This document shows positions 21,887 to 25,617 of a stretch of DNA of 55,356 bases, one piece after another. Source of the DNA: Anaerolineales bacterium (lineage in GTDB: Bacteria; Chloroflexota; Anaerolineae; Anaerolineales; Villigracilaceae); NCBI GenBank assembly GCA_016789365.1, contig JAEURH010000007.1, positions 1-55,356 of the forward strand. The letters run 5' to 3'. The notes under the pieces are model-generated. The model worked only from the letters and a program-made list of their open reading frames with translations, had not been told where the DNA came from and searched no databases. Every line of letters begins with the position of its first letter. The first letter of the stretch is position 1. The translations under genes and the position numbers were made by a program.

Positions 21887-23107
21887 TTATAAACCTGCTT
21901 TTCTTTGCAAACGCGCCAAACGATGGTCAATTTCGCCCAGCCAATGTTTGCGAATGTAGGCTGGCAAATCTGCTTTTTCAATTTCCGCACGCGCCATGTT
22001 TGCCCACTCCAATGCACTTTTCACATCGCGCAATTTATGCTCATAATATTTGGATAATTCAATTTGAGCATAGACATGATGTTTACTTGCCGCTTCTTGC
22101 CATAACTTGACTGCTTGATTTATATCTCCGCGCCGTTTTTGTAAGATAGACAACCGCTTCACTGCTACTGGGAAATCTGATTCTTGTAACCCCAACTCGA
22201 GACCTCGCTCATACAGCCTTGCCGCCTCATCCCAATGATTCAAATCCTCAAATAATTTTCCCAACGCAATAAAATCTAAACCATGTTCAATTTTTCCATT
22301 GTATGGATTATCCAACAATTCGCTGACGTGCCCCAACAAAGCCGCCATTGCGACAACATCCATCGCATTGTGATAAAACACGCCTGCCAAAGGATTTGCA
22401 TCGCCTGTTCTTAAATAATCAAAATACAGCCAAGGGATTTCATAGCCCGGCACTTCATCTGATGAGCGAGTGAAGCCTAGCACATGCTCTTCGAGATATT
22501 TCAAAGCGCGAGAAGGTAATCTATCTCGCCATAATCTTCGGGCAAGCGGGAGTAAATCTATATGAGCATAATTCTTAAATGGAACAGGAATACGATGCAA
22601 TGAATAACGAGTAACAAGCAATGGTGCATCAAAAGATTTGCCGTTAAACGTCACCAAGCCTTCACACGGCGCAAGGAAATGAATCAGCGCTTCGAGCATG
22701 GCTGGCTCTTCGGCGGGGTCACGCATAAAAAATTGCTTGAGCACAAATTTGCCATCAATGAATCTAGCAACGCCTACTAAAAAAGCATAAGTGCCTGTTC
22801 CACCTGAAACACCTGATGTTTCTGTATCTAAAAATGCGAACTTCGTAATGGGTAATTGATTAATTCTTTCATCTTTTGTAATTTGAGAAATAATAGAAAG
22901 CGGAAAGTGTGAATGTGATGAAACTTTTCCATGCAAATAGGTTTCGTCAAAGATTTGTTCTTTGATGAAAGCGTCGCCTAGTGATGTGGGGAACAAACTC
23001 CCAGCCAAGATTGATTCGATAGAAGAGTGGACAGGTTTGGGCGGGGTTGGAAGCGTGTTCGCCGTCTTTACGCCTAGTGACTTTAATTTATCTGCAAGCG
23101 ATGCCAT
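21887..23107 (-). CDS. YprB-like RNase H-fold exonuclease with TPR tail
   Basis: A 406-residue protein. Residues about 90-265 match the YprB/RNase_H_2 family of DEDD-type exonucleases, with FLDTETSG as the first acidic motif, LVTFNGKSFDAPLL as the second, and the later NAMDVVAMAAL. The rest (about 285-395) is helical with TPR-like pairs (DFIALGKLFEDLNHWDEAARLYERGL). Its natural substrate is not known; relatives are predicted to act on nucleic acid 3' ends. It lies between a repeat and the sortase gene on the same strand and may be transcribed with the latter. Confidence 0.82.
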   Translation of the reverse strand: MASLADKLKSLGVKTANTLPTPPKPVHSSIESILAGSLFPTSLGDAFIKEQIFDETYLHGKVSSHSHFPLSIISQITKDERINQLPITKFAFLDTETSGVSGGTGTYAFLVGVARFIDGKFVLKQFFMRDPAEEPAMLEALIHFLAPCEGLVTFNGKSFDAPLLVTRYSLHRIPVPFKNYAHIDLLPLARRLWRDRLPSRALKYLEEHVLGFTRSSDEVPGYEIPWLYFDYLRTGDANPLAGVFYHNAMDVVAMAALLGHVSELLDNPYNGKIEHGLDFIALGKLFEDLNHWDEAARLYERGLELGLQESDFPVAVKRLSILQKRRGDINQAVKLWQEAASKHHVYAQIELSKYYEHKLRDVKSALEWANMARAEIEKADLPAYIRKHWLGEIDHRLARLQRKAGL

Positions 23108-23128
23108 GCAGGGTATTTTATCTTATCT

Positions 23129-23779
23129 CTATATATCTAAAATATTTTGTTTCAAAAATTTAATTTGGGCTCTGTTTAATGGCTTGGCGATGATGAATAA
23201 CCTGCCCCAACTTAGGTTGCCATCTTTTTCGATGCAGGTTTGTAAGGTGACGTGATGCTCGCCGCGATAAACTTTGTTGAAGAGACCTTCGGCAGTTAAA
23301 AATTCTTCGGTTTCTACATTGATGAAATTGCTGTATGGGCTGAGCGGGTTGGTGGCTTTGTATTGCAAAATTTCTTCTACAATAAAATTTTTGGTATGAC
23401 CATTGCCATAAACAAGCTTGATAACATCACCCGCTTTGAGTTCTGAAAAATTTGCGCCCGCTAAATAGTTGTGGGCAAGCAAACCAATATTGCCGACTTC
23501 GCTAGCAATGCTGAATTGTGTGATGGTATTTGCTTCGGAAGAAACATAAGCGGGATTGCCATACGGTTGTTGAATGATAGGATATGCCATTACACCACTC
23601 ACATAAATACCACGCAGGGCTTTGGGGTTGCCGTCTTCGACTGATTCAATAAATGAAGATATTGTTGGAATGATGTTAGGTGATTCGTCTGCGCGGGCTG
23701 GGGTGATGGGGAATAATGAAAGGACGAAAACACTTAACAATGCAACAAATAATATTTGTTTTTTGATTCTGGATGCCAT
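23129..23779 (-). CDS. Sortase under tandem c-di-GMP riboswitches
   Basis: A 216-residue sortase-fold transpeptidase. A signal peptide or anchor (about 8-30, ending PARA) precedes the sortase domain. The catalytic His is His103 (GLLAHNYLAG), the Cys is Cys182 (HVTLQTC) and the Arg is Arg193 (WGRLFIIA). It should cleave a sorting signal on surface proteins and attach them to another polymer. No LPXTG-like substrate is visible in the window. I chose the ATG at 23779, with AAGGAG 6 nt upstream; the 8-codon longer frame has no such site. Two c-di-GMP-I aptamers in its leader imply expression tied to the sessile/motile switch. Confidence 0.88.
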   Translation of the reverse strand: MASRIKKQILFVALLSVFVLSLFPITPARADESPNIIPTISSFIESVEDGNPKALRGIYVSGVMAYPIIQQPYGNPAYVSSEANTITQFSIASEVGNIGLLAHNYLAGANFSELKAGDVIKLVYGNGHTKNFIVEEILQYKATNPLSPYSNFINVETEEFLTAEGLFNKVYRGEHHVTLQTCIEKDGNLSWGRLFIIAKPLNRAQIKFLKQNILDI

Positions 23780-23823
23780 ATAAAACTCCTTGCTTGCGAG
23801 CATCCAGTATTTGGAGGCTCGTT

Positions 23824-23909
23824 TTCGGTGGCTTGGCAGTCGTGACCGTTGTCGGTTTTAGACCCATAGCTTTGCGTCGCTGCCTTTCGGCAGGTTTGCC
23901 ATTGTCGGA
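23824..23909 (-). ncRNA. c-di-GMP-I (GEMM-I) riboswitch, gene-proximal aptamer
   Basis: On the minus strand the order of conserved blocks is GGCAAACC, a P2 hairpin CTGCC-GAAA-GGCAG with the docking GAAA tetraloop, GCGACGCAAAGC, GGGTCTAA, a variable hairpin arm, and GGTCACGACTGCCAAGCCACC. This matches the GEMM-I aptamer. It ends about 45 nt before the sortase start. A CTCC just after the aptamer could pair with the GGAG of the ribosome-binding site, so control of translation is possible. Confidence 0.88.
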
Positions 23910-23931
23910 ACGATTCCGTGTTGTAAGGTGC

Positions 23932-23963
23932 AAAAAAAAACAGGCTTGACATTTGCCAAGCCC
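23932..23963 (-). terminator. Intrinsic terminator between the two riboswitches
   Basis: On the minus strand a GGCTTG/CAAGCC hairpin is followed by GTTTTTTTTT. It lies directly after the distal aptamer and before the proximal one, as expected for an expression platform of the first riboswitch. Confidence 0.8.
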
Positions 23964-24010
23964 GCAGGAAAACAAAACTATATTTAATAATGAAAGCAGT
24001 GATGTTGTCT

Positions 24011-24098
24011 TCGGCGGCTTGGCGACCATGGTTGTTTTCACAACTTTAGGCCCATTAGCTTTGCGTCGCTGGCTTTCGCCAGGTTTGCTATTATCGGA
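24011..24098 (-). ncRNA. c-di-GMP-I (GEMM-I) riboswitch, distal aptamer
   Basis: The minus strand shows AGCAAACC, P2 hairpin CTGGC-GAAA-GCCAG, GCGACGCAAAGC, GGGCCTAAAG, a P3 arm GTTG/CAAC and GGTCGCCAAGCCGCC. The layout is the same as in the proximal copy, with different stem sequences that keep their pairing. A TATACT (-10-like) lies just upstream at about 24112-24117. Confidence 0.88.
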
Positions 24099-24204
24099 TT
24101 TCTGCGGTTAGTATATACCCAAAGGCATAAATTTCGGCTTTCATTTTGGTAATGTCACTTATTATTTTTGTTAGGGTTATACTCATGCTACACTTACACT
24201 CTTT

Positions 24205-25617
24205 ATGAAAAAACATCTCCCTTATTGGTTAAAACTTTTATACGGCTCAGGTGATTTAGGCTTATCGGGCATTGGCATGATGCGTTCTATTTTTTATGCC
24301 ATTTACTTGACTGATGTTGTCGGCATAGAACCGCGCCTTGCTTCGTTAGGTGCTTTGGTTGGTATTGTTTGGGATGCAATCAATGACCCAATTATTGGCA
24401 CATTAAGCGATAGAGTGAAATCAAAACTTGGTCGGAGGCGACCATTTTTGTTATGGTTTGCTTTTCCATTTGGATTAAGTTTTGTGATGTTATGGTCGGC
24501 ACCAAATTGGGAAAGCCAAATTGGTTTGTTAATTTATGTCACACTCGCGTTTATGATTTCGGATACGTTAACAACTTTGGTAGCAGTGCCGTATCTTTCA
24601 TTAACGCCCGAACTCACGCAAGATTATGATGAACGAACTTCGCTTTCGAGTTTTCGTTCGGTCTTTCAATTAATTGCCGCAATGGCGGTGGTTGTGACTG
24701 CGCCGATGATTGTGGATGCCGTGATATTAAATGGAGGAAGCCAACAACAAGGATTTATGACTGCTGGCGCAATTTTTGGTGCAATTGGTTCGCTTCCACT
24801 TTTCTTGATAGGTGTTTTCGTCCGAGAGAAATTTGCCTCGCGTGAAGAAGAGTCGCTTCCATTTCGTGAGAGTCTGAAAATGGCTTGGGAGAATGTCCCA
24901 TTTCGTTACGCGGCAGGAATTTATATGTTCAACTGGTCAGCAGTGGATATGGTCGCAATTGCTTTCCCATTCTTTCTTTTATATTGGATAGCACAAGGCG
25001 ATTTGTTAGCCAATATTAACTTCTTTGGAATCAACCTTGCACTTGAATCTGCATTTTTCGGAATCATGATGTCGGTTTGTATTTTGTTTATTCCGTTTTG
25101 GTTATGGATGGCAAAAAGACTCAACAAAATTAAAGCCTATATTATCGGCATGATTTGCTGGGTTGTGGCTGAAGTTTTAATTTTCACCATTCAACCAGGT
25201 GAAATTAATTATTTACTATGGATTGCTGCCTTTGCAGGAGTTGGTGTCTCTGCCGCATATATTTTGCCCGACTCCATTTTGCCCGATGTGATTGAATGGG
25301 ATGAATTGCGTACCAACCGCAGGCAAGAAGGTGTGTATTACGGCATCCGCACTTTGATTCGCAAATTGACAGGTGCAGGTGTGATATTTGTGACTTTGCA
25401 AATTTTAGGTTGGTCTGGTTATGTTGCCCCACCAGAAGGTGCAATTCAATTCACACAACCTGATTCTGCTTTGTTTATGATTCGTCTCATGGTTTCTTTA
25501 ATTGGGGCAGTTATAGTCTCTGGCACAATTTTATTAGCATGGTCATATCCATTGACCAGAGAAAAGTATGACCGAATCAAAAAATTGTTAGCAATTCGTA
25601 GAAGTAGGCAAACTTAA
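24205..25617 (+). CDS. GPH-family (MelB-like) sugar:cation symporter
   Basis: A 470-residue MFS transporter with twelve predicted membrane helices. The glycoside-pentoside-hexuronide family marks are visible: an N-terminal LLYGSGDLGLS, the cytoplasmic loop DAINDPIIGTLSDRVKSKLGRRRPF, and the mid-chain YLSLTPELTQDYDERTSLSSFR. It probably imports a glycoside coupled to Na+ or H+. The exact sugar cannot be read. It is divergent from the riboswitch-sortase unit and separated from it by the riboswitch region. No clear ribosome-binding site precedes the ATG. Confidence 0.88.
   Translation: MKKHLPYWLKLLYGSGDLGLSGIGMMRSIFYAIYLTDVVGIEPRLASLGALVGIVWDAINDPIIGTLSDRVKSKLGRRRPFLLWFAFPFGLSFVMLWSAPNWESQIGLLIYVTLAFMISDTLTTLVAVPYLSLTPELTQDYDERTSLSSFRSVFQLIAAMAVVVTAPMIVDAVILNGGSQQQGFMTAGAIFGAIGSLPLFLIGVFVREKFASREEESLPFRESLKMAWENVPFRYAAGIYMFNWSAVDMVAIAFPFFLLYWIAQGDLLANINFFGINLALESAFFGIMMSVCILFIPFWLWMAKRLNKIKAYIIGMICWVVAEVLIFTIQPGEINYLLWIAAFAGVGVSAAYILPDSILPDVIEWDELRTNRRQEGVYYGIRTLIRKLTGAGVIFVTLQILGWSGYVAPPEGAIQFTQPDSALFMIRLMVSLIGAVIVSGTILLAWSYPLTREKYDRIKKLLAIRRSRQT

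Follow-up and report, generated by a model that had tools for sequence, protein, structure and literature searches.

The window, a stretch of 55,356 nucleotides from an Anaerolineales bacterium (contig JAEURH010000007.1), carries on its minus strand a sortase gene preceded by two c-di-GMP-I riboswitch aptamers. The features of the gene and its leader that were recognised by profile are as follows.

23129..23779, minus strand: sortase gene, 216 aa, with His103, Cys182 and Arg193 (open reading frame, profiles, alignment)
23824..23910, minus strand: proximal c-di-GMP-I aptamer (cmscan with RF01051, 80.2 bits, E 3.2e-14)
24010..24099, minus strand: distal (first transcribed) c-di-GMP-I aptamer (cmscan with RF01051, 70.8 bits, E 6.1e-12)

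The sortase reading frame starts at the ATG at 23779, which is preceded by AAGGAG and lies 44 nt from the proximal aptamer. A sequence-only reading of this DNA had named a sortase as the riboswitch target, and profile searches bear this out: the protein passes Pfam Sortase (PF04203) narrowly, with 26.7 bits against a cut-off of 26.6, and the NCBIfam family sortase_YLP (NF053836) widely, with 225.1 bits against 125. His103, Cys182 and Arg193, which we take to be the active-site motif of sortases, are invariant in all 16 aligned homologues. The AlphaFold model of the protein is weak (pLDDT 55.6), so we give its structural matches (50 PDB matches listed, all sortases, none with E ≤ 0.001) a supporting role only. 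Searching PDB sequences with this family's profile gave four hits, with no sortase among them. The proteins that the sortase would anchor belong to the part of the model that we infer.

Five PF04203 matches are found in the window's genome, and none of the other four sortase-domain genes shares its contig with an RF01051 match. Sortase domains within very long frames (2923 and 2498 aa) occur in the same genome at C332:39134-39535 and C374:10557-10958, on contigs without an RF01051 match. Next to the window's sortase gene, an RNase H-like gene follows on the minus strand (21887-23107) and a divergent MFS transporter lies on the plus strand (24205-25617); judged over short flanks, the former is found again at 29 and the latter at 28 of 76 sortase loci. 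Paired adjacent sortase genes are seen at loci L085, L086 and L076, and in L086 and L076 c-di-GMP-I aptamers precede only one of the two genes.

The tandem c-di-GMP-I aptamers had likewise been proposed from the letters, with an Infernal search of the minus strand against RF01051 as the check. That search returned two complete aptamers, both covering model positions 1-87 and both scoring above the gathering score of 35. A promoter scan of the same strand reported no sigma-70-like promoter; a TATACT at 24110-24115 (minus), some 10 nt ahead of the distal aptamer, is a possible -10 box that is absent from the scan output.

RF01051 has three matches in the window's genome. The third is a single aptamer on another contig (L001; C111, 1501-1588 minus, 83 bits), whose selectivity base is G and whose terminator arm is, by eye, complementary to the aptamer 3' strand. 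Downstream of it are a secreted-looking 119-aa protein that belongs to no clear family, as well as a signal peptidase I (TIGR02228, 63.8 bits), and the start of the pair at L027 resembles this arrangement.

To place the leader among relatives, sortase homologues were sought in genomes of the family: 68 of 150 were positive, and all 79 listed loci were taken and scanned with Rfam, counting aptamers within 750 nt upstream of each gene. Two c-di-GMP-I aptamers precede 50 of these genes, one precedes 11 and none precedes 18, four of which (L061, L081, L101 and L107) have at most 252 nt of upstream sequence. For some of the relatives' aptamers the best score comes from the sister model RF03167 rather than RF01051, and the distal aptamer of L063 (1092-1225) has a long extra hairpin inserted, still matching RF03167 at 71.2 bits. 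Many of the compared genomes are incomplete, and that of the window is 86% complete. A search for named relatives gave three loci, of which L115 shows both aptamers; two Thermanaerothrix loci show, by eye, no c-di-GMP-I-like block in 600 upstream bases. Across the order, RF01051 matches in 213 of 400 genomes, and among the best 30 loci of that search (L004-L033) the downstream reading frame matches sortase in 10.

Terminator and distal aptamer

Between the two aptamers lies a hairpin with the form of an intrinsic terminator, one arm of which is complementary to the distal aptamer.

23940..23965, minus strand: intrinsic terminator stem-loop, 11 pairs (6 G-C) with a U-rich tail (terminator scan, -17.2 kcal/mol)
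23932..23940, minus strand: U9 tract of the terminator (sequence)
24016..24023, minus strand: strand A, GCCAAGCC, the distal aptamer 3' strand, complementary to the terminator 5' arm (sequence and co-variation)
23955..23962, minus strand: strand T, GGCUUGGC, the terminator 5' arm, alternative partner of strand A (sequence and co-variation)

A terminator at this place had been claimed from the sequence, and the comparison agrees: a terminator-like hairpin lies between the aptamers in 50 of 50 pairs, by a rule of our own making that has no shuffle control. Terminator-like sites in 23000-24400 number two against a shuffle mean of 1.7, which is no excess, and the case for the hairpin at 23965-23940 is therefore made by its strength and by its reappearance in relatives.

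Strands A and T were compared across relatives by anchoring each on adjacent conserved bases, independently of the other, which could be done in 48 of the 50 pairs (L060 and L075 have no anchor). At the four variable positions, 160 of 192 base pairs are Watson-Crick against a permuted mean of 126.8 (reached in 0 of 5000 permutations, kinship ignored). Counting only the 17 distinct combinations, the figure is 50 of 68 against 40.8 (10 of 5000, kinship again ignored). The exchanges run from G-C to A-U at two positions and from C-G to U-A at a third, with 16 mismatches in 192, and clear A:T pairing is missing in three of the 50 pairs (L060, L072 and L075). Folding follows the same alternation. 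For a transcript ending at the terminator 5' arm the best fold contains the A:T antiterminator (-42.9 kcal/mol), and for a stretch that reaches the U tract the terminator is preferred (-48.5 against -46.7 kcal/mol with A:T forced).

From this wiring, the distal aptamer would act on transcription. With no ligand, GCCAAGCC would pair with GGCUUGGC and transcription would continue; with ligand, GCCAAGCC would be retained in the aptamer, the terminator would form and transcription would stop.

Probable clamp on codons 2-4 and proximal aptamer

The sequence-only reading had placed the second control step at a CTCC that would mask the ribosome-binding site. The CTCC is present, but a masking role for it is less likely: CTCC over GGAG amounts to four pairs and is not conserved at that place, being missing directly after GAGC in several relatives (e.g. 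L042, L046, L049 and L052-L057). A longer, co-varying pairing involves the start of the gene instead, and the proximal expression platform is probably a leader hairpin with codons 2-4, here called the clamp.

23800..23807, minus strand: clamp strand S, CUGGAUGC, complementary to codons 2-4 (sequence and co-variation)
23769..23776, minus strand: codons 2-4 strand, GCAUCCAG, the clamp 3' side (sequence and co-variation)
23786..23791, minus strand: ribosome-binding site AAGGAG, in the clamp loop (sequence)
23909..23913, minus strand: P1 5' strand, UCGUU (sequence, folding)
23819..23823, minus strand: P1 3' strand, AACGA (sequence, folding)
23817..23821, minus strand: CGAGC, shared by P1 and a competing anti-clamp hairpin (sequence)
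23797..23801, minus strand: GCUCG, partner of CGAGC, overlapping the clamp strand (sequence)

The loop closed by CUGGAUGC:GCAUCCAG contains both the ribosome-binding site and the start codon. The pairing was scored with anchors independent of the start sequence, which gave 56 of the 61 aptamer-led loci (no anchor in L074, L083, L094, L099 and L102). Watson-Crick pairs make up 230 of 280 against 171.3 on permutation (0 of 5000, kinship ignored), and 93 of 140 against 62.9 over 28 distinct combinations (0 of 5000, kinship ignored). Matched changes include UGGGU/ACCCA in L047, UGAGC/GCUCA in L077, L079, L080 and L086, UGAGU/ACUCA in L070 and UUGGU/ACCAA in L087.

The clamp is nearly confined to genes with aptamers. 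By our clamp rule it is found in 50 of 61 aptamer-led genes and in two of 15 aptamer-less ones, one of which (L101) is cut by a contig end. The rule fails in 11 of the 61; start codons were assigned by rule, and L062, L083 and L085, which look mis-started by eye, were kept as misses. Tested against shuffled leaders, 46 of the 61 loci reach p 0.05, and 31 reach 0.01. Pairing scores average 19.7, compared with 14.0 for a stretch deeper in the gene, and when leaders are combined with the start regions of other loci, 192 of 1664 combinations score as well as a leader's own. Together with the distal terminator, the co-varying clamp supports the proposed order of transcription, then translation.

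A third strand competes with both the aptamer and the clamp, and so ligand should favour the clamp. Two wirings of this competition are seen. In the window's genus, the strand just 3' of P1 (CGAGC) pairs with GCUCG over the clamp strand, and of 53 loci examined, 29 have GAGC:GCUC or longer as their best 3'-side pairing. In other genera, the clamp strand continues into GCCUUUAUC, which is complementary to GAUAAAGGC of the aptamer 5' strand; pairing of this type reaches at least 8 pairs in 17 of the 53 loci, and matched changes are seen in it, for example GAUAAGGGC/GCCCUUAUC and GACAAAGGC/GCCUUUGUC. In both wirings, a ligand-held aptamer is predicted to free the clamp strand. With no ligand, CGAGC would pair with GCUCG, so that the clamp strand is occupied and the start is free. 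With ligand, P1 would be stabilised and the clamp strand released, and CUGGAUGC would then pair with codons 2-4, enclosing the ribosome-binding site and the start codon. The first codons of an enzyme would thus become part of an RNA switch.

Folding with the aptamer held agrees in sign with a ligand-favoured clamp, without deciding it. In 14 of 53 loci clamp probability increases by more than 0.2; in the other 39 the change is no greater than 0.2, and no locus shows a drop beyond that size. In the window clamp probability goes from 0.26 to 0.98, and the unpaired probability of the start region changes from 0.52 to 0.41 only. The absence of any fall by this measure bears on an opposite reading, in which the proximal aptamer is an ON switch: GCCACC at the aptamer 3' end would, without ligand, pair with the ribosome-binding site and the start codon, and ligand would free both. 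Such a pairing does appear in the minimum-energy fold of 23925-23760; the stretch from P1 with 30 nt of coding sequence folds as P1 and clamp instead, and we consider an ON switch very unlikely.

The clamp is also predicted to be probable (above 0.5) without a held aptamer in 40 of the 53 loci, so an ON state would need kinetics or ribosomes. This stability, and the single aptamer in 11 of the 79 relatives' genes, would fit an arrangement in which regulation falls to the distal riboswitch alone, with a relic copy as the proximal aptamer and a ligand-independent brake on translation as the clamp. We regard this as the most improbable of the explanations weighed: the proximal aptamer retains its score, the clamp keeps to aptamer-led genes, the competing strand recurs, and several single-aptamer genes (e.g. 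L071, L084 and L087) retain the clamp and have no terminator.

Ligand base and cyclic-dinucleotide synthases

The base before GCAAACC, presumably position 20 of Vc2, differs between the two aptamers.

24089, minus strand: RF01051 model position 11, mapped to Vc2 position 20; A in the distal aptamer (cmscan alignment)
23900, minus strand: G at the mapped Vc2 G20 position, in the proximal aptamer (alignment and sequence)

The claim that both aptamers are of the c-di-GMP-I type thus stands for their RF01051 class and needs amending for the distal one, which has A rather than G at this position and so may not be a plain c-di-GMP sensor. In Vc2 numbering, position 20 is G in the c-di-GMP type and A in the cGAMP type. 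The base is described as a selectivity factor and no hard filter (PMC9262584). Among the 50 pairs, the distal base is G in 24, A in 17 and C in 9, and the proximal base is G in 40, C in 8 and A in 2. All 17 pairs with a distal A have a proximal G (Fisher p 0.0002, kinship ignored). Both aptamers have C in six pairs (L049, L051-L054 and L056).

This asymmetry raises the alternative of a two-ligand NOR gate, in which the A20 distal aptamer responds to 3',3'-cGAMP, or to both dinucleotides, by ending transcription, and the G20 proximal aptamer to c-di-GMP by blocking translation, either signal being enough to silence the sortase. One sortase gene would then integrate two cyclic dinucleotides at two expression levels. 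The window itself has the A/G arrangement, and precedents exist for an effect of the base: in Geobacter, a cGAMP riboswitch became one for c-di-GMP when the A at nucleotide 20 was replaced by G (PMC6456294), and a Desulfobacca A variant bound c-AMP-GMP better (PMC9481103). Against this, in Cd1, where G11 corresponds to Vc2 G20, neither G11A nor G11C had a large effect (PMC9262584), so base 20 is no hard filter, and C also occurs at this base among the 50 pairs, in distal and in proximal aptamers.

The synthases encoded by these genomes were also compared. No Hypr-type cGAMP synthase was seen among the readable GGDEF domains, all of which keep Asp where Hypr has Ser; the residue could be read in 11 of the 16 hits that the window's genome gave and, for G087 and G292, in 23 of 30 domains retrieved out of 33 hits, the remaining ones being degenerate-looking or unmatched by the motif used. 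A SMODS nucleotidyltransferase was found in one of 14 genomes, G087, which has an A/G pair, and was not found in the other 13, the window's genome included. cGAMP is therefore possible as a ligand, yet unsupported by the synthases, and we think the NOR gate unlikely. The recurrent A/G pair offers a natural test of how ligand preference is divided between aptamer copies.

Proposed double OFF switch and known systems

Our preferred interpretation, which we hold to be likely, is a tandem, bi-mechanism, double OFF riboswitch on the sortase gene, acting at transcription and then at translation. The two aptamers, the terminator, both co-varying pairings and their recurrence at sortase genes come directly from sequence and comparison. 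OFF with ligand at both steps, a direction that the sequence-only reading had left unstated, is what the wiring predicts, and we infer from it the direction in cells, as well as a c-di-GMP-type dinucleotide as the ligand.

Such a device, a recurrent RNA element, would place sortase expression in Anaerolineales under c-di-GMP-type signalling. Related genera seem to have wired one logic in two different ways, and this makes the evolution of expression platforms testable. A literature search found no paper joining a tandem c-di-GMP-I riboswitch, a sortase and Chloroflexi or Anaerolineae. A 2025 survey reports c-di-GMP riboswitches as enriched in tandem, and the word sortase does not occur in the main text of that survey (PMC12452182).

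Tandem c-di-GMP-I riboswitches are well represented, with 347 doublets and 12 triplets in one survey (PMC9481103) and the triple-tandem Bc3-5 described elsewhere (PMC4759541). They share with the window the aptamer class and the placement of the tandem before one gene; the sections cited treat them as pseudo-cooperative and name no sortase, whereas the second platform here looks translational (PMC9481103, PMC4759541). Bi-mechanism tandems are a named class, illustrated with SAM riboswitches, and the authors left some tandems unchecked for it (PMC9481103). The window would offer a c-di-GMP-I case of this class. The SAM-II/SAM-V and mixed SAM-II doublets have the same layout, with a first aptamer and terminator and a second aptamer acting on translation of one gene, but a different ligand class (PMC9481103).

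For the separate steps, the closest likenesses are single aptamers. In Cd1, the transcriptional OFF switch of C. difficile, the terminator 5' arm is shared by the 3' arm and the aptamer 3' strand, and the same strand order is seen here, although Cd1 is a single aptamer on flagellar genes rather than a tandem on a sortase (PMC9262584). In the translational OFF switch Vc2, the stability of P1 is the switching element before translation, as we propose for the proximal aptamer; the anti-clamp strand and the coding-region clamp of the window go unmentioned for Vc2 in the sections cited (PMC9262584). Bc1 shows that one c-di-GMP-I leader can touch both transcription and translation, as predicted here, but it has a single aptamer with two terminators and is reported to be incoherent and unresponsive to c-di-GMP (PMC11218506). 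The Geobacter cGAMP (GEMM-Ib) riboswitches, for which tandem cases are mentioned, have A at nucleotide 20 like the distal aptamer, but they are activating, whereas the system in the window is predicted to be OFF with ligand and occurs where no Hypr GGDEF was seen (PMC6456294).
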